From Natronococcus occultus SP4 (GTDB lineage: Archaea; Halobacteriota; Halobacteria; Halobacteriales; Natrialbaceae), in NCBI RefSeq assembly GCF_000328685.1, contig NC_019974.1, forward strand, positions 1,169,001-1,233,000: DNA of 64,000 bases, read 5' to 3'. Both the position numbers and the translations under genes were made by a program. A model generated the notes under the pieces. The model was not told where the DNA came from, did not search any database, and saw nothing but the letters and a program-made list of their open reading frames with translations. Positions 19,582 to 63,131 of the stretch are shown here, piece after piece. Numbering within the stretch: position 1 is the first letter of the stretch; each line of letters begins with the position of its first letter.

Positions 19582-20919
19582 ATGACAGAGAAACCAAACA
19601 CGCGACGACGCTTTCTTGCACTGTCAGGATCGGCAACGCTTGCAGGACTTGCCGGCTGCACCGACCGACTCGACTTGGACGCGTCCGAGGACGACGAGAC
19701 CGGATCGTCGAACGAACCGCGCTCCGAAAACGACGAACAGGGCGAGACCAACAGCTACGAGCCGCCGACGCTGACAGTCGAAACTGAGTACGACAGCCGC
19801 GAGGAGTTCCGCCAGCCCGGGGAGTCGTTCGACGACTTCGAGGACCTCGACGTCTGGGAGACGATCGAGGGAACTGCGGAGCCCGACGAGGACACGGTCT
19901 TCGACGGCAGCCAGAGTCTCAAACTCACTGCCGAGGACGGGGAGAACGTCATCGTCGAGCGGTCGATCGAGACGGCGGACCTGACTGACTACGAGCTTTC
20001 CCTCGCTGTTCGCACCTCGACCCCGTCGAACGTGGCGATCGATATCCGTCTCGTCGACATCTACGGCGGGTACGCCCACCACCAGCTCCGGAGCGTCACC
20101 TACCGCACGCCGGATATCGGTTGGTTCCGGACGAACCCGGGCGTCTTCGAGGAGAGCACGACGCCGCTCGAGCGGGACGTCGTCGACGAGATCCAGCTCA
20201 TCGTCTACAACACCGGTGACGCGGAGGTGTGGGTCGACGATCTCCGTCTTCACGAAAAACCCGAGAAGGGGTACGTGGTGCTTTGCTGGGACGACGGCTT
20301 CGCGGATTTCTACGACACCGCGAGCCCGCTGCACGACGCGTACGGCGTCAACGCGGTTCAGGCTGCCGTCAGACAGTGGACGCGCGGGCAACGCGACGGG
20401 GTTATGACTACTCAGCAGCTCCTGGAACGCCAGGAGGCTGGCGACCAGATCGTCGCACACGGCACCCATACCCACCTCGCGGAGATGGATCCGGAGTCAC
20501 TCGAGGATAGCCTCCGACGGGACAAAAACTGGGCCGTCCAGAACGAGTTCGAGGGCGGTCACTACATCGTCTACCCGCACAACAGCTTCGACCAAACTGT
20601 ACTGGACGTCGTCTCCGACTACTACTACGCGGGCGGATTCAACCAGTCGGGCGACGTCAACCTCACCGGCGTCCACGGGTTCGATCCACTCGTTCTGCCA
20701 CGCACGATCGGCCACGACCTCGATATCTCGATGCGGTGTGTCGACCTCGCCGCCCGACACCGTCAGTGTTCGATCCTGAACTTCCATGCCTTCGATCTGG
20801 ACAATACCCTCGACGAGAACGAGTACGAACGACTGCTCGAGCACATCGAGAGCAAGGGTGACGATCTCGAGGTGATCGACTTCGACGACCTCTGGACGAT
20901 GCGACGAAACGGTCACTAA
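19582..20919 (+). CDS. Tat lipoprotein polysaccharide deacetylase
   Basis: A 445-residue exported protein. Residues 1-26 form a Tat signal with RRRFLALSG and lipobox LAGC, so it should be anchored outside the membrane. A low-complexity acidic linker follows, then a jelly-roll, carbohydrate-binding-like domain (about 75-230, EDLDVWETIEGTAEP...VWVDDLRLHE). The C-terminal NodB-type deacetylase domain has VLCWDDGFADFYDTA (metal-binding Asp pair) and QIVAHGTHTHLAEM, which supplies the HxxxH-like histidines. It probably removes acetyl groups from a cell-surface or exogenous polysaccharide. It stands alone. Confidence 0.88.
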   Translation: MTEKPNTRRRFLALSGSATLAGLAGCTDRLDLDASEDDETGSSNEPRSENDEQGETNSYEPPTLTVETEYDSREEFRQPGESFDDFEDLDVWETIEGTAEPDEDTVFDGSQSLKLTAEDGENVIVERSIETADLTDYELSLAVRTSTPSNVAIDIRLVDIYGGYAHHQLRSVTYRTPDIGWFRTNPGVFEESTTPLERDVVDEIQLIVYNTGDAEVWVDDLRLHEKPEKGYVVLCWDDGFADFYDTASPLHDAYGVNAVQAAVRQWTRGQRDGVMTTQQLLERQEAGDQIVAHGTHTHLAEMDPESLEDSLRRDKNWAVQNEFEGGHYIVYPHNSFDQTVLDVVSDYYYAGGFNQSGDVNLTGVHGFDPLVLPRTIGHDLDISMRCVDLAARHRQCSILNFHAFDLDNTLDENEYERLLEHIESKGDDLEVIDFDDLWTMRRNGH

Positions 20920-46102: not shown

Positions 46103-46847
46103 GGCACTGTCTAGTTCTGCACCTCCTCGATCGGCGTCTTTCCGTCGAGAGCTTGGTGCGGTCTCTGGCGGTTGTAGTAGTGCATGAATTGTTCAAACCA
46201 TTCGTATGCACTCGCCCGACTGCCCACCCACGAGTTATGGAAGCGGTCGATGCGCACTTTGAGGGTGTGAAACCACTTTTCGATGAGGTTTCGCTCGGTA
46301 TAGTTGACCCGACCGCTTAACCCTAATCGAGCAAGGGCAGTCCGATAGCCGAATTGATCGACGAGAAATACGGTGTCGGAGAGATCGTATTTCTCGTTAA
46401 GTCGATGCAGAAACGCAGCTGCCGGATCGGTTCCGTGCCGACCAAACAACGCGACATCGAGAATCAGCTTCGTTTCGGTGTCTATTGCAGCGTACAGCCA
46501 AGACCACTCGCCATTGATCTTGACAGCGGTCTCGTCAATCGCGACCCGCTTCGGCTGCGCCTCAGGCGGGTCGCACCCGCTGTCAGCCAGCCGATGTACC
46601 CAGTTCCAGACCGCTCCGTGAGAGCGTTCAACGCCTAATTCAGCGAGAATCGTTGTTGTCTCCCGAAGTGAACAACCGGTCTGATGAAGGCGGACGGCGA
46701 ACGCCCTGACGGGCGTCGCCGTCCGCTCGTTCTCCCAAGATTCTTCTAAATCCGCGTCGTAGCTCTCGCTGAGCAGGTTTGCGAGCATCCTAACCAATTC
46801 ACTCAACGACCTGCTCGTTTCTCAAACTGGCTCAACTAGACAGTGCC
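46103..46847 (-). mobile_element. IS6-family insertion sequence
   Basis: A 745-base element bounded by perfect 14-base terminal inverted repeats GGCACTGTCTAGTT (46103-46116) and AACTAGACAGTGCC (46834-46847), enclosing a single intact transposase. The eight bases outside each end (CAAATATT left, TACAGAGA right) do not match, so no target duplication is visible. The element therefore probably sits at a deletion or recombination junction. Confidence 0.85.
46111..46806 (-). CDS. IS6-family DDE transposase
   Basis: A 231-residue transposase. An N-terminal helix-turn-helix-like part (VRAFAVRLHQTGCSLRETTTILAELGVERSHGAVWNWVHRL) precedes the catalytic core: Asp91 in VAIDETAVKINGEWSWLYAAID, Asp150 in VFLVDQFGYRTAL, and a Glu in ERNLIEKWFHTLKVRID (Glu176 most likely). 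The frame is intact, so the element may be active. The stop lies 8 bases inside the left end. Confidence 0.9.
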   Translation of the reverse strand: MSELVRMLANLLSESYDADLEESWENERTATPVRAFAVRLHQTGCSLRETTTILAELGVERSHGAVWNWVHRLADSGCDPPEAQPKRVAIDETAVKINGEWSWLYAAIDTETKLILDVALFGRHGTDPAAAFLHRLNEKYDLSDTVFLVDQFGYRTALARLGLSGRVNYTERNLIEKWFHTLKVRIDRFHNSWVGSRASAYEWFEQFMHYYNRQRPHQALDGKTPIEEVQN

Positions 46848-47723: not shown

Positions 47724-49376
47724 CTACGACTCGTCTCTGTAAATCTCGACCTCCCCGGACTGATTGTCGTTATCTTGGACGCTGATACTCCAAGTCGAAC
47801 CGTCTCCAGAGATCGCTCCAATAGCCGGACCGATATCGTATGAATTCTCCCAGATAAGGTTACCACTGTCGACAACGGCTATCTCGCCGTTGCCTCGATC
47901 TGCAACGAGCACACGGTCTCCGTTGTCGCTGACGCTTACATCCTCAGCACCCCAGAAACCAAGCGATGCTGTCCATTGTTCATCGCCGGTTTCAGCGTCA
48001 ACAGCGTGGAGGGTTCCATCCCCTTCTGACGTGACAATCGTGCTGCCATCCGACGAGAGGTAGACCCAGCCACCATACGAATCAGTTTCCCAGACGACGT
48101 TGCCCTCGAGATCAAGAACGATCGTCTTGCCATCGTCAGTTCCGGCGACAACCAACTCACGCTCGCTGTCGATGTTGACCGAAATCACATCTTCGTCAGT
48201 TTCGTGAGTCCATTGCTCGGCGCCAGTGCTGTCGTAGAGTTTGACGCCAGCGGATCCATAGCGCTCGATATCATCACCTGAATAACGACCGGCACCGACA
48301 GCCACGTAGTCTCCCTCATCTGTGATAGCAACAGTCTGTCCGACAGATTCGCTCAGGTCTGTTTCCCACTGGATCTCACCATTCGCTGAAGCAGCAACAG
48401 TGCCGGGACCAGTGATTGGTGAGGAAACAGACGCAATCGTTGTCCCATCTGCAGTGGCATCGAGATCCCATAATTCGGGGTGCTGGAGAGCCGGCCCGTC
48501 GTCCTCGGTTAGGTCGAGTGAGCCGTACATATCAGCATCCATCCAGCCAACGGTACCTGTGGTTCCGTCTTCAGATACTTGGAGATGAGAGACACTGCGG
48601 TCAGCTCCGAGATTGATGACGTCGCCGTCTCTCTGCTCGTCGTATACCATTACGTTCCCGTCACCGAATCCGAAGAGGACGGTCTCACCGTCGGGTGAGA
48701 GGCCTGTAACGAGGCCAGAGGTGCTATATGTCTCGCTAGCCCGCTGCTCGATGCCCGAACTCGAGTCGTCATCAGAACTGTCGTCGGCTTCTGTGGGTTC
48801 CGACTCGAGTGTGATAGTCACTTCATCATCGCTTTCGATCGTCACATCTGTACTTCCGCTTTCGTAGCCGTCGGACTCAGCATTGACTGTAATCGATCCG
48901 CCTTCTGTCTCGAACGTTGCTTGGCCGTCCTCGTTCGTCTGCTGATCGTCACGAGTGTCGAAGATTATCGCATCGTCATGGACGAACTCTACATCGGCAT
49001 TTTCGATCGGGTCGCTATTCTCATCGACGACCGTCACAACGACGGTATAGTCGCCTGACTCTTCGCCACTGGCTTCAGCGCTATCTGCCGAGGATTGTGT
49101 CTCTTCACCCCCACCACCAGCCATGAGCAGACCCCAGATTACGAGTCCATACACACCTGCAACGGCACCTGCTTTCACTCCACCGCCGGCGGCTATCCCT
49201 GGTAGTGCTGTTAGCTTATTAGCTGTTCCCCGCCAATTCGTGCCGACGATGATGCCAAGCACGATCGGGAAGAAGACAAGCGCAAATAATCCCAAGATTA
49301 GGTACCCACTCCCCACTGCGACATTTCTCCCGGTTTTGTTCGGCTTCATGCCCGGGATACTATCCGCGATTTCCAT
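47724..49376 (-). CDS. Membrane-anchored beta-propeller protein
   Basis: A 550-residue protein. Two hydrophobic helices lie near the N-terminus (about 22-46 and 66-87). A Ser/Glu-rich stretch leads to a carboxypeptidase-regulatory/PEGA-like beta-sandwich (108-190, DYTVVVTVVDENSDPIENADVEF...). After an acidic Ser linker, residues 205-550 form repeated PQQ/WD-like blades, for example GAEQWTHETDEDVISVNIDS, GNVVWETDSYGGWVYLSSDG and GDEQWTASLGFWGAEDVSVSD. The repeats suggest an outward-facing sensor or protein-binding scaffold. No enzymatic motif is seen. Flanked by gene debris, so context gives no role. Confidence 0.75.
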   Translation of the reverse strand: MEIADSIPGMKPNKTGRNVAVGSGYLILGLFALVFFPIVLGIIVGTNWRGTANKLTALPGIAAGGGVKAGAVAGVYGLVIWGLLMAGGGGEETQSSADSAEASGEESGDYTVVVTVVDENSDPIENADVEFVHDDAIIFDTRDDQQTNEDGQATFETEGGSITVNAESDGYESGSTDVTIESDDEVTITLESEPTEADDSSDDDSSSGIEQRASETYSTSGLVTGLSPDGETVLFGFGDGNVMVYDEQRDGDVINLGADRSVSHLQVSEDGTTGTVGWMDADMYGSLDLTEDDGPALQHPELWDLDATADGTTIASVSSPITGPGTVAASANGEIQWETDLSESVGQTVAITDEGDYVAVGAGRYSGDDIERYGSAGVKLYDSTGAEQWTHETDEDVISVNIDSERELVVAGTDDGKTIVLDLEGNVVWETDSYGGWVYLSSDGSTIVTSEGDGTLHAVDAETGDEQWTASLGFWGAEDVSVSDNGDRVLVADRGNGEIAVVDSGNLIWENSYDIGPAIGAISGDGSTWSISVQDNDNQSGEVEIYRDES

Positions 49377-51558: not shown

Positions 51559-53082
51559 TTATTCACTGGATAGAGACTCCCAATTAGATACCATGGAAGC
51601 TCGTTGCTGCCATGGTTTTTCCAGAGCAGCTGTTATTTCAGTATATGTCTCATAGAGAGCATCATATTGATGTGTATGACCGGAATTAGGGCGATAGATC
51701 TTGTCTATTCCAATCATTTCGCTAGCTGCAATTTCAATATTTTCATAGAACCCATTAGCAGTCGCAGCTAATATTGCAGCTCCCTTTGCACCCATTTCTA
51801 TTCCTGCTGGTATGATAACTTCTGTATTAAGACAATCTGCGAATGTTTCACACAGCAGGGTTGATCGTGCCCCACCACCACATAACCTTATTTGATTTGT
51901 CTTATCGGGTAGCTTTTCAGAACAATCCCGTAGTGATAGTGAGAGACCTTCATAGACAGCTCTTAGAAGATGAGAGCGATCATGAGATGGATTCAGACCA
52001 GTAAACCCAGCTCTTGCATTTGGGTCAACGAACGGTGCTTTCTCACCGGCAGTACTTAGATACGGATGATAGATTACCCCTTCGGACCCAATAGGTGCGG
52101 AGCGAGCGAGTGATTCGACGGTTTCGAAGGATTCACCTCCTGCGATTGTTTTACGTACCCAATCGAGATTTGGCGTACCAGTCATTGCTCCCATTGCCCG
52201 AAGGCCCATTCCATTAATACCAAGTGCGAGTGTATATCCAACTGGTGGAGGACTTTTGTTCGGGGATTGGAGAATGTTCTGTATCTGAAGGGTCGTTCCG
52301 GCAACTACAGAACAATCTCCTGGTGTGAGTGCGCCACTTCCGAAGGCTGAAGCAGCAACATCAACGACACCGGTGACCACTGGTGTCCCCTCTGGAAGTT
52401 CTGTCTTCGCTGCTGCACTGGGTGTTACTTTTCCTGCGATCGCAGTCGGTGATTTGATCGATGGTAAAAGGTCTTCAAGAGATGGTAGAGTGATACCTTT
52501 CGGTAGTTTGGAAACAAACTCCTCAGTAACCGGATCATAGTTAATAAGTGATAATTCGGTTGGTTCACTTGCTAGCTCACCGGTCAGATTATATCGGATC
52601 CAGTCTTTGCATCCCAGTAAGGTATTAGCTGTTTTGAGCGTCTCCGGTTCATTATTTTCAATCCACTTTAATATCGGAAGAGCCAATCCAGAGAAGACAC
52701 CGTAGCCAAATCGCTCAAATAAGTCATCATATATGTTATTCTTCCTCCAGTTATTGACTATATCTGACGCTCTTCCGTCGTTCCAAATGATTGCGTTTCG
52801 AACTGGACTTCCTTCCTCGTCGACAAGCCAACATCCCCCTCCCTGTCCAGTCACAGCAACTGCGGCGATTTTACTACTTTCTGGAATTGACCTAACTGTT
52901 TCTTTGATCGTTTCAGTTGTATGTGCCCATAACAAATCCATATCTTGCTCGGCCCAATCTGGATTTGGTTTTGTAACGGGATTCTCTCGAGAGCTATGGA
53001 CAAGTTCTGTCCCATCAGTTTCGAAAGCTGCTGTTTTGATAGCGGTTGTGCCAGCATCGATACCTATTAAAATATCACTCAT
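51559..53082 (-). CDS. FGGY-family carbohydrate kinase, sugar regulon copy 1
   Basis: A 507-residue kinase with ILIGIDAGTTAIKTAAFETDG, IAAVAVTGQGGGCWLVDEEGSPVRNAIIWNDGR, GVVDVAASAFGSGAL (catalytic Asp region) and IRLCGGGARSTLLCETFADCL. It shares the Q-G-x-G-C-W signature with the kinases at 15.9 and 60.3 kb, closest to L-xylulose/erythritol-type kinases. Last gene of the leftward operon after the tandem aldolase, 35 bases downstream of it. Predicted to phosphorylate a ketose or polyol that the aldolase then splits. The start MSDILIGIDAG was preferred to one four codons earlier. Confidence 0.88.
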   Translation of the reverse strand: MSDILIGIDAGTTAIKTAAFETDGTELVHSSRENPVTKPNPDWAEQDMDLLWAHTTETIKETVRSIPESSKIAAVAVTGQGGGCWLVDEEGSPVRNAIIWNDGRASDIVNNWRKNNIYDDLFERFGYGVFSGLALPILKWIENNEPETLKTANTLLGCKDWIRYNLTGELASEPTELSLINYDPVTEEFVSKLPKGITLPSLEDLLPSIKSPTAIAGKVTPSAAAKTELPEGTPVVTGVVDVAASAFGSGALTPGDCSVVAGTTLQIQNILQSPNKSPPPVGYTLALGINGMGLRAMGAMTGTPNLDWVRKTIAGGESFETVESLARSAPIGSEGVIYHPYLSTAGEKAPFVDPNARAGFTGLNPSHDRSHLLRAVYEGLSLSLRDCSEKLPDKTNQIRLCGGGARSTLLCETFADCLNTEVIIPAGIEMGAKGAAILAATANGFYENIEIAASEMIGIDKIYRPNSGHTHQYDALYETYTEITAALEKPWQQRASMVSNWESLSSE

Positions 53083-53116
53083 TTCTGGATGCACGAAAAA
53101 TCTCGAGGGTTCTTAT

Positions 53117-54445
53117 TTAGCTCTGCTGACCGTAATCCGCGAATCGCTCGGTGAGAGTTTTGATCTCTGTATCCGCGAGAATCTTCGGCTCACCGACACT
53201 GCGGGCTTGATAGTGGATACGGGCACAGTATTCAGTCATCAACGCTATCTCATATGCTTCTTCGACCGACTCACCAATAGTGATTACACCATGGTTCCCA
53301 AGTAGACAAGCGCCATATTCGTCTCCGAGAGCTTCAACAGCCAGCTCACCAAGAGCCTCAGTTGCTGGCGTTTCGTAAGCGGTCACAGGTACTTGATCGC
53401 CAGCGAATGCGATTAGGTAGTGCGATGCTTCGATTGGTTCTTGGAGGCTAGCAAATGTGCTCGCATACGGAGAGTGAGTGTGAACAACTCCGCCTACGTC
53501 CTCACGTGCACGATAAATTGCAGTATGCATCGGTGATTCGCTCGAGGCCGGTAGCTTGCCTGCAACTTGCTCACCCTGAAGATCGACCAGGGGTACTGTT
53601 TCGGGTGTGATTTCTTCGTAAGGTACACCCGAGGGATTTATCGCGACCTCCTCACCGTTTCGCGAACTAACGTTTCCACCTGTTCCTTTCGTTAAACCAT
53701 CTTCGAGCATTTGTCGTCCAAGCTCGCTGACGGCTGCTCGTTCGGCTTGGAGAGCGTCGCCAACTGGAACTTCAGTAGCTTCGTCTTGGCTATCGGTGTG
53801 TTCTCCATAGTGCTCAAATATCTCGATCAATTCGGTTACAGCCTCGTTAGATAGGATCTCTGGCTCACCTACTGAGATCGCTTGATAGTGTATTTGCGCA
53901 CAATATTCGACCATCATCGCGACCTCGTAGGCCTCATCAACGGTCTCACCGACTGCAAGTACACCGTGATTTTCGAGCAGACAGGCATTGTATTCTTCGC
54001 CAAGTGTTTCTAGGGCCGCTGTGGCTAACTCGGCAGTTCCATATGTTTCGTAAGGAGCTACCGGTACCTCATCACCGATAAACGCGATAAGATAGTGCGA
54101 AGCCGGAATTGGTTCGCCCATGCTTGCAAATGTACTCGCATAAGGTGAATGAGTATGAACTACTCCACCGACATCTGGCCGTTCACGGATCACGTCAGTA
54201 TGCATCCGGAACTCACTCGAGGGCTTGGATTCACCCGCAATATGATCCCCTTCAAGATCAACAACAGGGACATCTTCAGGCTCAATCTCGTCGTAAGGCA
54301 CTCCAGATGGACTAATTGCGACGTGATTTCCGTTGCGCACACTGATGTTTCCGCCAGTTCCCAGTGTGAGTCCGTCTTTGAGCATTCGCTGTCCAAATTC
54401 ACTGATCTTCGTTCGCTCCGTATCGAGTTTCGCTTCTGGTGTCAT
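53117..54445 (-). CDS. Tandem-duplicated class II aldolase (FucA/AraD fold x2)
   Basis: A 442-residue protein made of two full class II aldolase/adducin domains joined by a short acidic linker (about 213-232). Domain 1 has Glu78, His97, His99 and His160; domain 2 has Glu303, His322, His324 and His385. Both sets keep the spacing of E. coli FucA (E73, H92, H94, H155), so both zinc sites look complete. Shared segments include GVVHTHSPYASTFAS, ASHYLIAF and GNHGV/ENHGV. Normal members are single-domain, about 215 residues, and tetrameric. Expected to cleave a phosphorylated ketose or act on a related acid. Start at MTPEAKLDTERTK. Confidence 0.88.
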   Translation of the reverse strand: MTPEAKLDTERTKISEFGQRMLKDGLTLGTGGNISVRNGNHVAISPSGVPYDEIEPEDVPVVDLEGDHIAGESKPSSEFRMHTDVIRERPDVGGVVHTHSPYASTFASMGEPIPASHYLIAFIGDEVPVAPYETYGTAELATAALETLGEEYNACLLENHGVLAVGETVDEAYEVAMMVEYCAQIHYQAISVGEPEILSNEAVTELIEIFEHYGEHTDSQDEATEVPVGDALQAERAAVSELGRQMLEDGLTKGTGGNVSSRNGEEVAINPSGVPYEEITPETVPLVDLQGEQVAGKLPASSESPMHTAIYRAREDVGGVVHTHSPYASTFASLQEPIEASHYLIAFAGDQVPVTAYETPATEALGELAVEALGDEYGACLLGNHGVITIGESVEEAYEIALMTEYCARIHYQARSVGEPKILADTEIKTLTERFADYGQQS

Positions 54446-54517
54446 GAGTTGTGGATTATGGTCGCGTTCTTGTGTTATGGTTTGACGGTACAGTCTTCCA
54501 GTCAATATTGGATTTTC

Positions 54518-55696
54518 TTACATCTTTGGAGCTGTTACACCAAAATCATGAAATGCATCTGGACCGGTTCCTTTTGATTTGAGGGTTTGGCCGTTTGAGT
54601 CGAATAAGTGAAGGTCAGATGGATCAAACGTGACTATCACCTCCTCTCCTGGAGAAGGATGGAAGGTAGGATCAGCACGAGCGACCCAGTTTTCGTCCCC
54701 TAACCGAATCGTGAGGAAATTGTCACTGCCCATTGGTTCGACGACGTCAACAATCGCACGGATCGTGTGACCAGTGTCTATGTCACGTTCGTCAGTAACC
54801 TGTAGATCTTCTGGCCGGATACCTACCGTAACCGATGTCTCTGGGTCGAGGTCTGTCCGTTCAACGATTAACTCATTGAGTTCGTAAGTCAACTGATCTC
54901 CACCTTTAGCAGTATCGAGTAGCTTTGGGGATTCCGTGTTCGTTACTGTCGCCTCTATGAAGTTCATCCGTGGCGAACCGATGAACCCTGCAACAAACTG
55001 GTTTGCTGGGTGATCGTAAACTTCGTTTGGTGATCCGACCTGCTGGAGATTACCATGATTCATCACAGCGATACGATCCGCCATTGTCATTGCCTCTGCC
55101 TGGTCGTGTGTGACATAGATCGACGTCACGTCCAGATCACGTTGGAGTCGAGTGATTTCTGTCCGCATATGAGTTCGGAGTTTTGCGTCAAGATTCGACA
55201 ATGGTTCGTCGAACAGAAATACTGCCGGCTCACGAACAATTGAGCGCCCGAGAGCAACTCTTTGTTGCTGGCCACCGGATAGCTCAGCTGGAGTATCTTC
55301 AAGCAACTCTTCAATGTCCATCATTTCAGCGACTTCTTCGACTCGTTCTGCGATTTCGGATTTCGAGAGATCGCTTGAATACTTTAGCCCGAAACCGATA
55401 TTCTCTCGGACGGTCATATGCGGATACAGCGCATAGTTTTGGAATACCATTGCAATGTCTCGATCTTTCGGCGCATCATCGTTGACGATACGTCCGCCGA
55501 TCGAGATGGTACCCTCGCTTATATCTTCGAGACCTCCAACCATCCGCAACGTTGTTGACTTCCCACAGCCGGACGGTCCTACGAGCACGAGGAACTCCCC
55601 ATCTTCGATCTCAAGATTCAGATCCTCGACGGCTACGATACGCTCACCTCTTGGATCATACACTTTTGTGACGTCCTCAAGTGTAACTTGAGCCAT
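54518..55696 (-). CDS. ABC sugar transporter ATPase (MalK/UgpC type)
   Basis: A 392-residue ATPase that energises sugar import. Walker A GPSGCGKST (39-47), Q-loop MVFQNYALYPHMTV, signature LSGGQQQRVALGRS, Walker B VFLFDEPLSNLDA and switch His in YVTHDQAEA are intact. Residues 235-390 form the regulatory TOBE/MRP-like domain (IGSPRMNFIEATV, VGIRPEDL). Its ATG overlaps the stop of the dehydrogenase gene by one base (TAATG), so the two are translationally coupled within the operon. Confidence 0.93.
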   Translation of the reverse strand: MAQVTLEDVTKVYDPRGERIVAVEDLNLEIEDGEFLVLVGPSGCGKSTTLRMVGGLEDISEGTISIGGRIVNDDAPKDRDIAMVFQNYALYPHMTVRENIGFGLKYSSDLSKSEIAERVEEVAEMMDIEELLEDTPAELSGGQQQRVALGRSIVREPAVFLFDEPLSNLDAKLRTHMRTEITRLQRDLDVTSIYVTHDQAEAMTMADRIAVMNHGNLQQVGSPNEVYDHPANQFVAGFIGSPRMNFIEATVTNTESPKLLDTAKGGDQLTYELNELIVERTDLDPETSVTVGIRPEDLQVTDERDIDTGHTIRAIVDVVEPMGSDNFLTIRLGDENWVARADPTFHPSPGEEVIVTFDPSDLHLFDSNGQTLKSKGTGPDAFHDFGVTAPKM

Positions 55697-56766
55697 TAGT
55701 CATCACCTCTCAATTCCGGTAGTTGAAGTACCGAATCGTCGGCAATGTGCTTTGGTTCCTCACCTTCGAAAATGGCCTCAATATCGTCGACTATCATTGT
55801 TGAGTGCCGGTTGATCACTTCCTCTGCTGCGCCAGCGAGGTGTGGCGTCGTAACGACATTTTCCAATTCGAGTAGCACGTGATCTTCTGGAAGAGGTTCC
55901 TCATCGTAGACGTCGAGTGCAGCACCTCGAAGATTGTCAGACTTAAGTTGCTGGATCAGTGCATCCTGATCGATGATAGCACCTCGGGCTGTATTGATGA
56001 AGAAGGCAGTTTCCTTCATCAGAGCGAACTCGTCGGACCCGATCAGTCCGCGGGTTGCATCCGTCACTGGGACGTGAACAGTAACAAAATCAGACTGTTC
56101 ACAGAGCTCATCGAGATCGACCTTGGTAACGTCATCAGGCATCTCCTCTTGCGGGATGAATGGATCCATTGCGAGGATGTCGACGCCGAATCCTCGTACA
56201 CGTTTTCCCACTTCTCGACCAATATCACCGAATCCGACGATACCGACTGTCTTGCCCTCGAGTTCGGGGCCCTTTAGCTCGGCGTACGGTGATCCCTTCG
56301 CGACCCCCCAAGTAACGTCTTCCCGTTCACCGCCAGAAGCTGAATCGGTGACTGGCTCCCCTGTATAGGTGCCAGTATGGAGGAGATGATGTCCATGGGA
56401 AATATGACGCGCAACATCGATCATGAGTCCAATGGTGAAGTCAGCTACGCTGACAGCGTTGCGTCCTGGGGCATAGAGAACTGGTATGTTACGCTCGGAG
56501 GCAGCTGAGATATCCACGTTGGCGTCTGGACCACCACGTGGGCACGCGATAAGCTCCAGTTGTTCTGCAGCATCGAGGACTTTTTCCGAGACTCCCTCGA
56601 ATCCGACGATTAACACGTCTACGTCCTCTATTGCCTCTATTAGTTCTGACTCGGAAAGTCGTTCGTCACGCTCGGCAATGGGCTGATAGTCGACCTCCAG
56701 ACCGAGGTCCTCTTTGAGTCGCCGTCTGTTCTCCTTATCTACGTTCGCGGTTACGAGTGCTTTCAT
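55696..56766 (-). CDS. D-2-hydroxyacid dehydrogenase, sugar regulon
   Basis: A 356-residue NAD-dependent dehydrogenase of the phosphoglycerate dehydrogenase group. The Rossmann motif is GKTVGIVGFGDIGREVG, followed by LMKETAFFINTARGAIIDQDAL and the catalytic His in VVTTPHLAGAAEEV. Substrate domain has IACPRGGPDANVD and VLYAPGRNAVSVADFTIGLM. Intact, unlike the paralogue at 26 kb. Sitting between transporter permease and ATPase genes, it probably interconverts a 2-hydroxy and 2-oxo acid in the same pathway. Confidence 0.9.
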   Translation of the reverse strand: MKALVTANVDKENRRRLKEDLGLEVDYQPIAERDERLSESELIEAIEDVDVLIVGFEGVSEKVLDAAEQLELIACPRGGPDANVDISAASERNIPVLYAPGRNAVSVADFTIGLMIDVARHISHGHHLLHTGTYTGEPVTDSASGGEREDVTWGVAKGSPYAELKGPELEGKTVGIVGFGDIGREVGKRVRGFGVDILAMDPFIPQEEMPDDVTKVDLDELCEQSDFVTVHVPVTDATRGLIGSDEFALMKETAFFINTARGAIIDQDALIQQLKSDNLRGAALDVYDEEPLPEDHVLLELENVVTTPHLAGAAEEVINRHSTMIVDDIEAIFEGEEPKHIADDSVLQLPELRGDD

Positions 56767-56851
56767 GAGTGGTAATCTGTAGTATTGTTTGTCTGATCGG
56801 TGCTCTCAACGCATCCAGGGATTGTTGGACAGGATCCTTGCAGACTGGTTA

Positions 56852-57724
56852 TCACTCCTTGACCGCCCCCATTGTCATTCCTTCGACCAAGTAATCTCTG
56901 ATCAGAAGGCTGATGATAATCACCGGGAGTACGGTTACGGTACCCGCTGCACCAAGCATTCCCCAATTGATTGATGTGTAACCGAGTGCGTTCTGAATCT
57001 CGAGAGGTGCAGTACGTACTCCTCCATCCAGTAGTACTAATGCAAGCTGGAAGTCATTCCACGAGAAGATCAGCCCGATGAACGCCGCTGCAGCGACACC
57101 CGGCATAATGAGCGGTAGCACTACTGCACGGAATGCCTCGATTCGGTTACATCCGTCAACCATTGCTGATTCTTCGAGTGATTCCGGTACTTCATCGATG
57201 AATCCCTTGATTATCCAGATCATCAGTGGTAATGTCAACAGGAAATGGACGATAATCAGTCCAAGTCGTCCTCCTGTAAGCCCAATTCTCGTATAGAACA
57301 CATATAAAGGTACGAGAAGGGCTAGCGGAGGAATCATCCGGGTTGAGAGAATATAGAAGCTGAAGTGGTGCGCTGCTGGGACATCGAGCCTTGAGAGACT
57401 GTACGCTGCTGGGACAGCTAGTAGCAAGCTCACTGAGACAACGGTTACCGAAACAATAGCGCTGTTCAGCAGGTAGCTATGGAATTCACCATCAAGGAAC
57501 AAGTCTTGGTAGTGCGCGAATGTGATTTCGACAGGAACCAGTTCCACCTCGACGATCGAATCGTGGGTCTTGAATCCCGTTATAACCATCCAGTAGATCG
57601 GGAATAGCATCCAGATACTAACGATGAGCCCGATCATGTACTTGACTGCTAGTTTGGCTACCGCAACCGGGTCAGCCGTCAACCGTTCGAACGCACCGGC
57701 TAACCGTCCACTTTGGATACTCAT
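56852..57724 (-). CDS. ABC sugar permease (MalG type)
   Basis: A 290-residue membrane protein with six helices. The cytoplasmic EAA loop that contacts the ATPase is ESLEESAMVDGCNRIEAFRAVVLPLIMPG. A long N-terminal periplasm-facing loop (KTHDSIVEVELVPVEITFAHYQDLF) is usual for CUT1 permeases. It overlaps the MalF-type gene by 4 bases. An 85-base gap separates it from the dehydrogenase gene. Confidence 0.9.
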   Translation of the reverse strand: MSIQSGRLAGAFERLTADPVAVAKLAVKYMIGLIVSIWMLFPIYWMVITGFKTHDSIVEVELVPVEITFAHYQDLFLDGEFHSYLLNSAIVSVTVVSVSLLLAVPAAYSLSRLDVPAAHHFSFYILSTRMIPPLALLVPLYVFYTRIGLTGGRLGLIIVHFLLTLPLMIWIIKGFIDEVPESLEESAMVDGCNRIEAFRAVVLPLIMPGVAAAAFIGLIFSWNDFQLALVLLDGGVRTAPLEIQNALGYTSINWGMLGAAGTVTVLPVIIISLLIRDYLVEGMTMGAVKE

Positions 57725-58647
57725 TGGATGTCCACCACCTTGAATAGGCTCATTGTCACCGCAATTGTGATGACCAGCAGGATGATTCCGACTGTTGCTG
57801 CTGCTCCGCCATCGAGATTAACGAACGCAAGGCGGTAGACGAACACGTTGAGGATCTCAGTAGCAGTACCAGGACCTCCTTCAGTTACTAACCAGATGTA
57901 ATCGAAGGTCCGGAAACTCTCCATCAGTCGGAAGACGGCAGCGATTGCAACGAAGTATTTGATCTGTGGTAGAGTGATATGCCAGAAGATAGCCCACGAA
58001 GGTGCACCGTCAACGCGGGCCGCTTCGTAGAGTTGCTGGGGTACTGAGAGCAATCCTGCGAAGACGATCAACACAACGAGGGGCGTCCATTGCCAGGTGT
58101 CGATCATCAGAATCGTGAACATCGCCATACCACTACTCGATGTCCAAGCAGGAGCGGAGAACCCGAGTGACTCAATCATCACGTTGAGAATTCCGACCTG
58201 CCCGTCGAGCATCATCCTCCAGACTAACCCGGTTGCAACCGGTGTCATAACCATTGGAATGATGAAAATCGTCCGGACGATCGGACGCCAGGTCTCAGTC
58301 AGGGACTTCAGATAGACTGCAAGCGCAATGCCAAGTACTAGTTGGAACGTTACGCCACCACCCGTGAAGATCACCGTACGCCAGAGTGAATTTTGGAATC
58401 GGTCACTGCTTAGGATCTCTACGTACTGGCTCACCCCAACCCAATTATGATCGGGAGCTGCGAACGGCCAGTCGTGCGCACTCATCCAGATGCCCTGCAG
58501 AAACGGATACAGGGTCAAGAACGCGAGCAAAGCAACGGATGGGAGTAGAAAGACCCACTTTAGCAGATCCTTGCTGATGTCGAGTCGGTTTAGCAGTGGC
58601 TCCCGACTGGACGTCTCGGATTTAGCTGCTTTTTGCTCGTGGCTCAT
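57721..58647 (-). CDS. ABC sugar permease (MalF type)
   Basis: A 308-residue membrane protein with six predicted helices and the EAA loop LYEAARVDGAPSWAIFWHITLPQIKYF. The first helix (WVFLLPSVALLAFLTLYPFLQGIWMS) is typical. Forms the translocation channel with the MalG-type partner whose start overlaps its stop; starts 27 bases after the binding-protein gene. Confidence 0.9.
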   Translation of the reverse strand: MSHEQKAAKSETSSREPLLNRLDISKDLLKWVFLLPSVALLAFLTLYPFLQGIWMSAHDWPFAAPDHNWVGVSQYVEILSSDRFQNSLWRTVIFTGGGVTFQLVLGIALAVYLKSLTETWRPIVRTIFIIPMVMTPVATGLVWRMMLDGQVGILNVMIESLGFSAPAWTSSSGMAMFTILMIDTWQWTPLVVLIVFAGLLSVPQQLYEAARVDGAPSWAIFWHITLPQIKYFVAIAAVFRLMESFRTFDYIWLVTEGGPGTATEILNVFVYRLAFVNLDGGAAATVGIILLVITIAVTMSLFKVVDIQ

Positions 58648-58674
58648 TTGACTGGACTTATGTGAAACTGTATG

Positions 58675-60123
58675 TCACTCAATGTACTCCTCTGGGATAT
58701 CTTGGGCATACTCGGTTATTTCGGAGGCAGCTGATGATAGCGCCTCTTCTGGACTACTCTCTCCAGTAACAGCGGAGTTCATCGCAAGGGCAGCCTCGGA
58801 CATGATATCCATGTTCTGTGGTGTATCAAGCGGTACTGCTGGCGGATTGGATGGGACCATATCTAATCCCTGAGTATGGGCTTCGACCCAAGAGTCCTTG
58901 ATTCCGTGTTCCTCCCACTCGTCTTGATCGAACACGTATCCTTCACGCGCCCAGCCGTAACTCTCTGCACCTTCCCATGCCCTGATCGATGACAGTAGAT
59001 TTGCTTCTCGACTGATCGAGAACTGAATGAACAACCAAGCAGCCTCAGGATTCCTACTGTATTCACTGATCCCGAGAGACCAAGTCCATGGTGCAGCGAT
59101 CTGTTCGCCGTCTGGGCCAGGAAGTGGGGGGATCCATTCCGTCCGTTCAAGTTGTTCGTCGTCCCAGACACCAATCGCACTTGGTGTATGGAGAGCCATC
59201 GCAACATCGCCCTCGCCCATAGCTAGGTTCGAGCGATACCAGTCGAAGTTGCCGATATCATCCGGTCCGTAGCTCATCAACTCCGAAAAGACCTCAAGTG
59301 ATTCAACCCCTTCTTCGGAATCAAGACGGGCTTCTCTCTCTTCGTAGTCAATCCACTCGGCACCGTAGGACCGAAACATGGTCGCCCAGTTCGCTGTGGA
59401 GAGCGGATCAGTACTTGCTCGTGATGCAATTCCCATCCGATCGGTCTCGTCGGATTCATCGATCGTTCGGGCCGCTTCTACTAATTCTTCGTAGGTCTCT
59501 GGTGGATCGATTCCGAGTTCATCGAACGTTGGTTCGTCGTAGGCAATGGCACCATAAGCCTCCACGCCGAACGGCATACCGACCAGAGCCTCTTCTTCTC
59601 CGTATGTTAGTGAATCGATGATCCCATCAGAGAAATCATCCATCGCGAACCATTCTTGGTCGGTCAGTTCGGGGTCCTCAAGATATTCGTTGAGGTCTTT
59701 CACCCACTCTCCATGGTAGTAATCCGCACTGGGCCAGAGACCAGTGAAGAAACCATCGAAGTTTCCACTTTGGTTCTCGAGGTCAAGAACGACACGCTGC
59801 CAGAGTTCATCTTCGGGAAAAGTCTGGAACTCAAGATCCATCCCAGTGAGTTCCTCGAAGTGCGGGATGAAGTTCTCCATCAGATCAGTGAAGGCATGTT
59901 CGTTCATCCCGAAGACAAGCGTCTCTCCCTCAAATTGCTGCCAATCGATGTCGGCTTCTTCTGCATGGGAGACAAGACGATCCCCCCATTCATCAATTGA
60001 ATCTTGATCGTCTTCATCACCAGCATCGTCGGCAATGCAACCTGCCAAGCCGATGGTCGTTGATGCGCCAACTGCTTTTAGCATATTCCGTCGGTTCATA
60101 TTTCTTCCATTTTCTCTGGACAT
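58675..60123 (-). CDS. Extracellular sugar-binding lipoprotein (family 1)
   Basis: A 482-residue solute-binding protein. NRRNMLKAVGASTTIGLAGC supplies a Tat-like twin arginine and a lipobox cysteine, followed by an acidic linker. Mature sequence has FEELTGMDLEFQTFPEDELWQRVVLDLEN, DGIIDSLTYGEEEALVGMPFGVEAYGAIAYDEPTFDELGIDPPETYEELVEAA, hallmarks of CUT1 (maltose/oligosaccharide type) binding proteins. First gene of the leftward operon; a 17-base perfect palindrome lies 38 bases before its start. Confidence 0.92.
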   Translation of the reverse strand: MSRENGRNMNRRNMLKAVGASTTIGLAGCIADDAGDEDDQDSIDEWGDRLVSHAEEADIDWQQFEGETLVFGMNEHAFTDLMENFIPHFEELTGMDLEFQTFPEDELWQRVVLDLENQSGNFDGFFTGLWPSADYYHGEWVKDLNEYLEDPELTDQEWFAMDDFSDGIIDSLTYGEEEALVGMPFGVEAYGAIAYDEPTFDELGIDPPETYEELVEAARTIDESDETDRMGIASRASTDPLSTANWATMFRSYGAEWIDYEEREARLDSEEGVESLEVFSELMSYGPDDIGNFDWYRSNLAMGEGDVAMALHTPSAIGVWDDEQLERTEWIPPLPGPDGEQIAAPWTWSLGISEYSRNPEAAWLFIQFSISREANLLSSIRAWEGAESYGWAREGYVFDQDEWEEHGIKDSWVEAHTQGLDMVPSNPPAVPLDTPQNMDIMSEAALAMNSAVTGESSPEEALSSAASEITEYAQDIPEEYIE

Positions 60124-60160
60124 TCTACCACCTTTGGTCGGTACAGGATGACATACTATC

Positions 60161-60177
60161 AGCTACTGGCAGTAGCT
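60161..60177. promoter_or_regulatory. Perfect 17-base palindrome before the sugar-binding-protein gene
   Basis: AGCTACTG-G-CAGTAGCT, with weaker symmetry continuing outward (GACATAC...GTCATATG). Located between the divergent sugar operons, so a candidate binding site for their regulator, for example the IclR protein at 63.3 kb. Confidence 0.5.
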
Positions 60178-60282
60178 GTCATATGCTCCCTGTGAGCGTC
60201 CACCATCCTCTTTCGTATCTATCTATAATAATTCTTCGGTAGGTAGATCGCGATATACTGACATTCTTTAAACATAGGTAAC

Positions 60283-60290
60283 TTTTATAA
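60283..60290 (+). promoter_or_regulatory. TATA box for the rightward sugar genes
   Basis: TTTTATAA lies 24-31 bases before the ATG at 60314, the leaderless spacing, and is the reason for choosing that start over the TTG at 60299. Confidence 0.6.
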
Positions 60291-60313
60291 AGGATTGTTT
60301 GCAATGTCATGGC

Positions 60314-61828
60314 ATGGAAGAGGTACTCATAGGTGTTGATGCCGGAACGACGAATATCAAATCAATTGCCATGGATCCAAGTGGCAGCCAACTCTATGTC
60401 GCGTCTCGCGAGAACCCAGTACAGACACCGGCTGAAAGATGGATCGAACAAGATATGGAGACAACCTGGCGCCTGACTGCGGAGACCATCCGAGAAGTGG
60501 TTGAGCAAATACCTGACTCACGACCGATTTTGGGTGTTGGAATCACTGCTCAGGGTGATGGGTGTTGGTTGATCGATGAGAACGGCGAGCCAGCTCGAGA
60601 CGCTATTCTTTGGTCAGATGGTCGTTCATCAGAGATCATCGAAGAATGGATCGAATCGGGCACAGCTGCGTCCGTTACTGATATCTGTGGTAGTGATCTC
60701 TTTCCGGGATCGACTCTCTCGATCCTAGCTTGGCTTGCTGAACAAGAACCGAACGTCCTAGACCGGGCTGACACTATTTTCTATTGCAAGGATTGGCTTA
60801 AGTACAGGCTCACAGGAACGCGAACAAGCGACCCAAGCGATATGTCGATGCCGTTCCTCGATATCGAAAGCGGAACTTACGCAAAAGATGTCTTTGAGAT
60901 GGGCGGGGTTGGTGATCTAGAAGCCTTACTTCCGCGGATCGCAAACCCAAGTGAAATTGTTGGTACGGTCACAGAGCCAGCAGCTAAGACGACGGGGTTA
61001 CCAACCGGAACACCCGTCGTCTCGGGTGCACTCGATATTGTCGCCTGTGCTTATGGTAGCGGAGCAGTAGAACCAGGGGATAGTTCCTCAGTTGTCGGTA
61101 CCACCTCTTTGAACCAGACGATACTTGAGGACCCGCCTCTTGATACGGACGGAACTGGCTTCTCGTTCGCTCTTGGAAATGGACAGTACTCACGGGCTTT
61201 AGCGAGTATGGCCGGAACACCCAATCTGGACTGGGCCTTTGAGGAGTTTACTGATAACGAAAAATATCAAGACGTCATTCCACGGTTAGAAGAGATCCCG
61301 ATTGGATCTGAAGGAGTTTGCTACCATCCTTATCTCAGCGTATCCGGAGAACGAAGTCCATTTCTCAAGACAAACGCTAGGGCAAGTTTCCTTGGACTTT
61401 CTCCTGATCACACGAACGATCATCTTCTCCGTGCAGTCTATGAGGGAGTTACGCTCGCGATGCGTGATTGTTATGAGCATATGCCGGGGGATCCTGACCG
61501 GATTCTAATGAGTGGTGGTGGTGCTCGGTCTGATTTCTGGTGTCAACTCTTTGCCGACTGTCTTGACACCCAAATCGCGGTTCCTAAGGGTGATGAGTAC
61601 GGCGCAAAAGGGGCTGCACTGCTCGCTGGTGTAGGAAGCGACATCTACGAAGATCTTGAATCAGCTGTTCGGAAAACAACGAAAATTGAACGCACCTATG
61701 AGCCAGTCCCCGAAAACACCCAGCAATACAATATCTGGTATGACCACTTTCGATCCAGCTATGAGTCGCTCTTCGATGTCTGGGATGATCGCAGTCGCTC
61801 GATGACGGAACTTGAGCGTTGTCGGTGA
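60314..61828 (+). CDS. FGGY-family carbohydrate kinase, sugar regulon copy 2
   Basis: A 504-residue kinase: VLIGVDAGTTNIKSIAMDPSG, ILGVGITAQGDGCWLIDENGEPARDAILWSDGR, GALDIVACAYGSGAV and ILMSGGGARSDFWCQLFADCL. The AQGDGCW segment is nearer to LyxK/EryA than that of copy 1. Two diverged kinases in one regulon suggest two phosphorylation steps or two substrates. Divergent from the ABC operon; followed 151 bases later by the dehydratase. Confidence 0.88.
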   Translation: MEEVLIGVDAGTTNIKSIAMDPSGSQLYVASRENPVQTPAERWIEQDMETTWRLTAETIREVVEQIPDSRPILGVGITAQGDGCWLIDENGEPARDAILWSDGRSSEIIEEWIESGTAASVTDICGSDLFPGSTLSILAWLAEQEPNVLDRADTIFYCKDWLKYRLTGTRTSDPSDMSMPFLDIESGTYAKDVFEMGGVGDLEALLPRIANPSEIVGTVTEPAAKTTGLPTGTPVVSGALDIVACAYGSGAVEPGDSSSVVGTTSLNQTILEDPPLDTDGTGFSFALGNGQYSRALASMAGTPNLDWAFEEFTDNEKYQDVIPRLEEIPIGSEGVCYHPYLSVSGERSPFLKTNARASFLGLSPDHTNDHLLRAVYEGVTLAMRDCYEHMPGDPDRILMSGGGARSDFWCQLFADCLDTQIAVPKGDEYGAKGAALLAGVGSDIYEDLESAVRKTTKIERTYEPVPENTQQYNIWYDHFRSSYESLFDVWDDRSRSMTELERCR

Positions 61829-61979
61829 CCACCTTCTCCATCCATAAGTGATATATTGGGTAGCTGTAGACGGAGAAATTGTTGGAAGATCCACTAGAAG
61901 ACGGACTAACATACTAAGTTATTCCCATTGACCACGAGATAGAACAACACACAAGTCTCTCGGGTTTGTATCTCGTCGC

Positions 61980-63131
61980 ATGCACGTCACTGGATACGAA
62001 CTCTACGAAGTTCCCCCTCGTTGGGTCTTTCTCAAGATCGAAACTAGTACTGGCCTCATAGGGTGGGGAGAACCAGTTGTTGAAGGCTATGCAAAGACTA
62101 CGATGGCTGCTGTTGAAGAGCTTATAGACAACTATCTAATCGGGAAAGATCCGCTCGAAATCGAACGTCACTGGCAAGCAATGTACCGTGGGCGCCACTT
62201 CCGAGGAGGGCCTATTTTAATGAGTGCTATTTCTGGTATCGATCAGGCACTCTGGGACATCAAGGGGAAACACTATAACGCACCGATTTATGACCTCCTC
62301 GGGGGACGAGCTCGGGATCGGATCAAGGTATACGATTGGATTGGTGGAGAAACTCCCTCCGAGATACGGTCTTCTGCGGCTGATGCTATCGAAAATGGCT
62401 ATACAATACTGAAGATGGCTGCAGTCTCTCAGATGAATTGGATTGATTCACCAGAAGTCGTCGAGGTCGCTCGTCAACGCCTTGCTGCCGTGCGCGATGA
62501 AGTCGGTCCGGGTGTCGATATTGCCGTCGATTTCCGTGGCCGAGTAAGAAAAGCGATGACAAAATGGCTCGCATCAGAGCTGGATCCATATGATCCGATG
62601 CTCTATGAAGAGCCATTGCTACCGGAGCATTTCGATATGTTGGCAGAGGTCAGAAACTACACGAAGACACCACTGGCATCGGGTGAACGGCTGTACTCTC
62701 GGTGGGATTTCAAGCAGTTGCTCGAGAGAGATCTTGTCGATGTTATTCAACCAGACCCTTCTCACGCGGGGGGTATTACCGAAACGAAAAAGATCGCCAA
62801 TGCTGCAGAAGCAGTCGATGTCGGCGTTGCTCTGCATTGCCCACTAGGCCCAATCGCGTTTGCTACTGGCATTCAACTCGATACAGCGATTCCGAATGCG
62901 TTTGCTCAAGCCCAGTATCTCGAAGTTCACGAGCCAACTGACAACGATCTTCTAAATTACCTTCGTGATCCAACCGTATTTGGATTCGAGAACGGCTACG
63001 TCACACCCTTGGAGGAACCTGGGCTTGGTATCGAAATCGATGAAGAATATGTCCAAGAGCAGAGTGAACTACAAATAAACTGGCAAACGCCGATCTGGTA
63101 TCACGAAGACGGAAGTGTCGGTGAATGGTAG
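61980..63131 (+). CDS. DgoD-like sugar-acid dehydratase (enolase superfamily)
   Basis: A 383-residue enzyme resembling D-galactonate dehydratase, which removes water from an aldonic acid to give a 2-keto-3-deoxy acid. Landmarks: PPRWVFLKIETSTGLIGWGEPVVEGYA, GRHFRGGPILMSAISGIDQALWDIKGK, Asp in IAVDFRGRV, Glu in LYEEPLLPEHFD, Glu in LASGERLYSRWDF, and His in ALHCPLGPIAFA. The C-terminal TPIWYHEDGSVGEW is also characteristic. The exact sugar acid is not determined. Intact. Confidence 0.88.
   Translation: MHVTGYELYEVPPRWVFLKIETSTGLIGWGEPVVEGYAKTTMAAVEELIDNYLIGKDPLEIERHWQAMYRGRHFRGGPILMSAISGIDQALWDIKGKHYNAPIYDLLGGRARDRIKVYDWIGGETPSEIRSSAADAIENGYTILKMAAVSQMNWIDSPEVVEVARQRLAAVRDEVGPGVDIAVDFRGRVRKAMTKWLASELDPYDPMLYEEPLLPEHFDMLAEVRNYTKTPLASGERLYSRWDFKQLLERDLVDVIQPDPSHAGGITETKKIANAAEAVDVGVALHCPLGPIAFATGIQLDTAIPNAFAQAQYLEVHEPTDNDLLNYLRDPTVFGFENGYVTPLEEPGLGIEIDEEYVQEQSELQINWQTPIWYHEDGSVGEW

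Follow-up and report, generated by a model that had tools for sequence, protein, structure and literature searches.

The nearest solved relative of the second domain of the protein reported here is DrdA, the 5-deoxyribulose-1-phosphate aldolase of Bacillus thuringiensis (6btd, 6btg; 46% identity by Foldseek), an enzyme marked by its own substrate, a preference for Mn and a gene clustered with those of the DrdK kinase and the DrdI isomerase. It is also the best PDB sequence match of our whole chain (205.6 bits), from which it differs in being, according to the passages on it in PMC6079011, a one-domain enzyme that forms a tetramer of identical chains. FucA, solved from Escherichia coli (1fua) and Streptococcus pneumoniae (4c24), is likewise a single-domain homotetramer, and excerpts of two studies agree with the premise of the preliminary description of this locus that active sites in the family lie between subunits: Phe131 belongs to a subunit's own pocket and Tyr113', Val202' and Phe206' are the neighbour's (PMC11274987), and the acid-base pair is formed by Tyr113' and Glu73 (PMC11841055). 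The latter source, in the part that concerns the related dioxygenase POD, puts its active site in a cleft shared with the neighbouring subunit, and passages of PMC12599920 describe C-terminal helices of the class II aldolase fold that touch the adjacent protomer. Closer in habitat, the haloarchaeal ribulose-1-phosphate aldolase (NF053831; Halxa_2272, in excerpts of PMC9700705) shares both the fold and the domain of life with our protein but is single-domain; the same excerpts list an uncharacterised, distinct FucA* in Haloarcula, Haloplanus and Halohasta, possibly the same group as the aldolase described below. For a fused enzyme the best parallel is the monomeric glyoxalase I of yeast and Plasmodium falciparum, a dimer-type enzyme joined into one chain with two non-identical active sites (PMC5412262, in part), although its fold is unrelated, its symmetry is two-fold rather than four-fold, and the passages on it mention no exchange of tails. 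A search of the open-licence PMC literature, partly with narrow terms, returned no report of class II aldolases in tandem or fused form.

The window analysed here, 64,000 nucleotides of the Natronococcus occultus SP4 genome (4.31 Mb, 3 contigs), carries such a gene on its minus strand at 53117-54445, where a single open reading frame of 442 codons from ATG runs without an internal stop (counted from an alternative TTG start at 54505, the product would be 462 residues long). Unlike FucA, the 442-residue chain holds two domains: Pfam finds two Aldolase_II (PF00596) stretches that together score 373.1 bits against a cut-off of 22.2, which places the protein in the superfamily, and a profile search of the genome gives the two domains separate scores of 195.5 and 183.3 bits, in the same frame and free of stops. 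The first domain, D1 (residues 7-217; 53795-54427, minus strand), is of an aromatic-core subfamily and is followed by an acidic linker of 14 residues (218-231; 53753-53794, minus strand) and by the second domain, D2 (residues 232-442; 53120-53752, minus strand), of a proline-core subfamily. The two align without gaps, with 133 of 211 residues identical (63%) and 63.5% nucleotide identity. The Glu and three His of the superfamily (E73, H92, H94 and H155 in FucA numbering) are present in both halves, at residues 78, 97, 99 and 160 of D1 and 303, 322, 324 and 385 of D2. The reading frame, Pfam and the alignment thus confirm the earlier claim of two complete domains in one chain, each with a Glu and three His and offset by exactly 225 residues.

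Only 57 of the 133 residues identical between D1 and D2 use the same codon, which, with the low DNA identity, indicates that the pair is old and not the product of assembly collapse. That outcome, a separate gene pair collapsed into one frame by assembly or annotation, was the one named beforehand as fatal to the claim; it now has practically no probability, since continuous, stop-free, full-length homologues of 65-68% identity occur in five other genomes, another lies on a Halomarina plasmid, and the halves are only 63.5% alike in DNA; nothing was found in favour of a collapse. One other aldolase of the family is encoded in this genome, a single-domain protein (L003) that scores 368.3 bits to NF053831 (cut-off 300).

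Assignment to a characterised enzyme is less simple. Scored alone, D1 and D2 stay below every NCBIfam equivalog cut-off reported: 239.6 and 219.6 bits for FucA (cut-off 264), 226.0 and 212.9 for the ribulose-1-phosphate aldolase NF053831 (300), and 96.8 and 92.5 for the 3-oxo-tetronate 4-phosphate decarboxylase OtnC (NF043034; 250). The methylthioribulose-1-phosphate dehydratase MtnB (TIGR03328; 137.05) gives 91.9 for D1 and no match to D2 at E <= 1e-25. The whole chain scores 454.1 for FucA, 427.0 for NF053831 and 173 for TIGR03328, above the cut-offs because two domains are summed, each of which fails alone. Membership of the FucA, ribulose-1-phosphate aldolase and OtnC equivalogs was rejected on the per-half scores, and the family therefore does not fix the substrate. 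Another double, at the Halohasta locus (L063:7974-9317), passes single-domain equivalog cut-offs through the same whole-protein summing.

An AF2 model of D2 alone (pLDDT 84.4) superposes on DrdA 6btd with Z 30.1 and an rmsd of 1.8 over 189 aligned residues, and on FucA 1fua with Z 26.2 and an rmsd of 3.3 over 197, so that the FucA-like fold is supported by a model for D2 and by sequence for D1. Confidence in the tail helix of this model is low (about 45-63), which would be natural if that helix packs against a neighbour missing from the prediction. Prediction of the full chain from six alignment rows gave a pLDDT of 44.1 and a pTM of 0.38, too low to inform on domain packing. Both halves share with FucA the catalytic Glu, the three His, Tyr113, the phosphate residues and the tail Phe/Tyr.

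The preliminary description had proposed looking for other double-domain members, and intact ones were found in other haloarchaea, in two types. Type A doubles, built like the protein of the window, are present at full length in five of the 391 genomes of the class that were searched (G364, G385, G186, G333, G287; 65-68% identity) and on a Halomarina megaplasmid (L091:9058-10395), which makes seven with the window. Type B doubles, with two aromatic-type halves, occur in five haloarchaea, Halohasta litorea and Haloferax massiliensis among them. In addition, a draft genome (G818; 87% complete) holds on a 4.4-kb contig (contig 145, 275-1771; L110/L121) a mixed double in reversed order, with the proline core first. 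Because the genome sets overlap between searches, counts are stated per taxonomic family: doubles were found in 1 of 125 genomes of the window's own family (PF00596 search), in 10 of 170 of a second (five type A, five type B), in 2 of 146 of a third (Halomarina, its plasmid record and G776 being the same organism and counted once, and G818), and in none of 18 and none of 26 genomes of two more. Among the 40 plasmid records listed of 695 matched by tblastn, that of Halomarina was the one with a double; two scans of viral contigs gave no relatives, and a phylum-wide search of 392 genomes gave, among the matches listed, one outside the order, to a single-domain protein (G575, E <= 1e-30). In Halohasta litorea, the strand opposite the type B double encodes a separate D1-type single (L063:9723-10421) about 0.4 kb away.

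The two halves do not descend from one recent duplication. In a tree of the cores (61 of 85 domains, with ribulose-1-phosphate-type and long-branch rows excluded), the type A D1 domains fall into one clade (97/90) together with the two halves of type B and with single-domain proteins from Natrialba and elsewhere, and the D2 domains into another (98/92) with other single-domain enzymes; a tree of 67 domains splits them as well. Since each half groups with its own singles, type A is a fusion of two paralogous subfamilies, which corrects the initial view of an enzyme duplicated within one polypeptide. A recent internal duplication is excluded by these separate clades and by the few shared codons. 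Judging from the same trees, type B is two copies of the D1 subfamily joined. One or two origins may account for all the mixed doubles.

The halves have nevertheless been in contact, since they exchange DNA: identical runs of 134 bp in the Halomarina double, a sign of recent gene conversion inside the gene as far as sequence can tell, and of 62 bp in that of G364. Judging from the ratio of dN to dS, which we read only from the two close pairs with unsaturated synonymous sites and which is low in both halves (0.010/0.142, 0.017/0.221, 0.021/0.235 and 0.026/0.394), purifying selection is acting on D1 and D2 alike. When FucA positions are mapped through PDB alignments to the E. coli enzyme, Asn29, Gly44, Ser71, Ser72, Glu73, His92, His94, Tyr113, His155, Phe206 and Tyr209 are invariant across the 24 halves that make up the 12 doubles of types A and B, and position 43 is Ser or Thr in all of them (Thr for Ser in one). 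Such conservation bears on the idea that catalysis has been lost from one half, probably D2, which would serve a structural or regulatory role only. What recommends this idea is that D2 has no aromatic residue at position 131; yet its metal, acid-base and phosphate residues are all kept in seven of seven type A doubles, it is under purifying selection, and a D2-type protein is the only such aldolase in the complete gene cluster of another haloarchaeon (G304), and we regard a dead half as highly improbable.

Thirteen columns distinguish D1 from D2 in all seven type A doubles, among them FucA positions 75 (Arg or Pro) and 131, which is Tyr in D1 (Tyr135; 54041-54043, minus strand) and Pro in D2 (Pro360; 53366-53368, minus strand). 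Four of the 13 fall in the C-terminal tail, and here the two subfamilies prove to be exchanged between the halves. We compared position 131 with FucA position 205, the residue directly before the tail Phe, in 78 single-domain homologues (domains were made unique beforehand; 104 were kept and one incomplete copy was set aside). All 62 singles whose residue 131 is Tyr, Phe or His show Lys, Arg, Gln or Ala at 205, and of the 16 that have Pro at 131, 13 show Ile, Leu, Met or Val (the others being Gly, Gly and Tyr). This coupling draws on few independent events, since the proline cores form one clade. A first comparison (85 domains, 61 singles) had shown no exceptions, and the enlarged set brought the three among proline cores. 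The aromatic residue is paired with Lys also in alignments of DrdA 6btd, 4c24 and FucA 7x78, and DrdA thus differs from our protein in joining an aromatic residue at 131 to a Lys before the tail Phe.

In the type A doubles, this pairing is inverted. Position 205 is hydrophobic behind the aromatic D1 cores (7/7) and Arg behind the proline D2 cores (7/7); in the window, the tail of D1 (residues 200-217; 53795-53848, minus strand) is of the proline-core type with Ile209 at this position, and that of D2 (residues 425-442; 53120-53173, minus strand) is of the aromatic-core type with Arg434. The reversed double of G818 has its tails exchanged in the same sense. Aromatic cores of mixed fusions thus bear the hydrophobic tail of the proline type and proline cores the basic one, so that in eight of eight mixed doubles the 131/205 pairing is broken within the half and restored across the halves (16 of 16 halves each). 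Type B doubles, with aromatic cores, have Arg at 205 in 10 of 10 halves; their first tails also run into a linker and yet keep the Arg, and position in the chain is therefore not the cause of the exchange. Profile scores give the same picture, with cores that match their own subfamily in 14 of 14 type A halves and tails that match the other subfamily in six of seven D1 and seven of seven D2 halves (the exception is D1 of L035, at +3.3, and D1 of L091 is weak, at -1.6).

How the exchange arose is a separate matter from why it lasted. In both halves the sliding profile scores switch sign nowhere but around residues 163-190, as a single crossover predicts. If a D1 gene recombined once with a circular or tandem copy of a D2 gene, at a point just ahead of the tail, the order core1-tail2-linker-core2-tail1 would follow automatically and in one step, an origin that requires no selection. 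The exchanged tails might then be a mere scar of one homologous crossover at fusion, with nothing depending on the match, and the DNA exchange between halves shows that recombination within the gene does occur. The same exchange makes persistence harder to explain neutrally: conversion has restored the tails in none of the eight mixed doubles, the identical run of Halomarina sits between the two discriminating sites and covers neither, and the double of reversed order follows the same rule. We consider a functionless scar unlikely.

The exchanged tails suggest instead that each half completes the active site of the other. If the tail helix acts on the neighbour, as in known structures, and if the domains alternate as D1-D2-D1-D2, each pocket receives the tail that matches it. 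This pattern fits the pseudo-tetramer with active sites of two kinds that the preliminary description had envisaged, and is the best support for it, though indirect and drawn from few independent evolutionary events. The reading we favour, and hold to be rather probable, is thus of a working two-domain aldolase that releases DHAP, in which paralogous haloarchaeal metal-dependent enzymes of FucA/DrdA type were joined in one chain, with tails that match across an alternating ring. Two chains would probably form one pseudo-four-fold ring with two types of site. In the first, metal, phosphate pocket and Tyr135 would come from D1 and the catalytic Tyr and tail helix from D2; in the second, metal, phosphate pocket and Pro360 would be supplied by D2 and the Tyr and tail by D1. 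The tails would have been exchanged at or after the gene fusion, leaving the pockets with their matching tails, now on the other half.

The gene neighbourhood points to a role in sugar catabolism. An FGGY sugar kinase (51559-53094) lies directly downstream of the aldolase on the minus strand, and the operon continues on the other side, on the same strand, with a CUT1-type sugar ABC transporter and a dehydrogenase: a UgpC/MalK-type ATPase (54518-55696), a D-2-hydroxyacid dehydrogenase (55696-56766), two sugar ABC permeases (56852-57724 and 57721-58647) and a sugar-binding protein (58675-60123). Divergent from these, on the plus strand, are a second FGGY kinase (60299-61828) and an enzyme of the galactonate dehydratase family (61980-63131; 567 bits, cut-off 311), both conserved beside the aldolase. 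Across 24 neighbourhoods, compared by blastp to nine proteins of the window with Pfam and NCBIfam searches on some neighbours, the second kinase family recurs in 16, the dehydratase family in 16 and the 2-hydroxyacid dehydrogenase in 14. Upstream of the cluster is an IS6-family transposase (46111-46806; 196.4 bits). Elsewhere in the window, 47724-49376 encodes a protein of 550 residues that combines an Ig/carboxypeptidase-regulatory-like part with a PQQ-type beta-propeller. The cluster itself (51559-63131) has a GC3 of 0.33-0.55 against 0.81 in the open reading frame at 19582-20919, a difference that hints at foreign or plasmid-like DNA.

In this conserved cluster, the place of the aldolase is taken by a single D1-type protein (in Natrialba, G018, for example), by a single D2-type protein (G304), by type A doubles (the window, G364, G385, G287 and Halomarina) or by type B doubles. 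The fusion most likely does the same job as the singles, cleavage of a ketose-1-phosphate to DHAP and an aldehyde, and in the window the neighbouring FGGY kinase would supply the ketose-1-phosphate. A simple kinase-aldolase route leaves both the dehydrogenase and the galactonate-dehydratase-like enzyme unaccounted for. The double of G186 lies instead between a rhamnulokinase-family FGGY kinase (316.8 bits) and a lactaldehyde-dehydrogenase-like enzyme (400.3), both below the equivalog cut-offs, a setting as expected for a deoxyketose-1-phosphate aldolase. Beside the D1-type singles, at L065:10512-14936, there is a set of genes for an FAD-dependent oxidoreductase, an FAD-binding protein, an iron-sulfur protein and an HbpS-like protein, and related genes are found near type B doubles. 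The first three of these resemble GlpABC.

Four D2-type singles (L075-L078) adjoin, unlike the D1-type singles, an acid-sugar kinase family with PF07005 and PF17042, of which the one member scored (L076:8080-9465) gives 457 bits to the 3-oxo-isoapionate kinase OiaK (cut-off 700). This kinase hints at other substrates for the D2 subfamily, suggesting an archaeal acid-sugar pathway, and with the fixed differences at FucA positions 131 and 75 (F131A being a known FucA mutant) it lends some weight to a bifunctional enzyme whose halves cleave different substrates and whose fusion merely equalizes their amounts. However, G018 and G304 have one aldolase match each at E <= 1e-20, and D1-type or D2-type alone therefore seems enough for the same cluster; a bifunctional enzyme would moreover leave the tails unexplained, although it is compatible with the alternating ring. 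We rate it as possible, if doubtful.

Overall, the gene is a real, old and conserved fusion and a variant of a known enzyme family, and what makes it interesting is the tail exchange together with the proposed heteromeric active sites, which can be tested. It also marks an annotation trap, in which summed domains lead to fusions being named FucA or ribulose-1-phosphate aldolase when neither half supports the name. More tentatively, and as a proposal that could well fail, heteromeric aldolases may have arisen in haloarchaea by fusion of paralogues, the exchanged tails being a natural test of the idea, with pocket and tail co-evolving across the interface to give one ring two composite sites of different aldehyde preference that stay distinct despite gene conversion. 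If the alternating ring is true, these proteins would be a natural heteromeric form of a family otherwise studied as homotetramers, and would offer a sequence handle on how the tail residue relates to the neighbour's pocket, useful for engineering DHAP aldolases in sugar synthesis.
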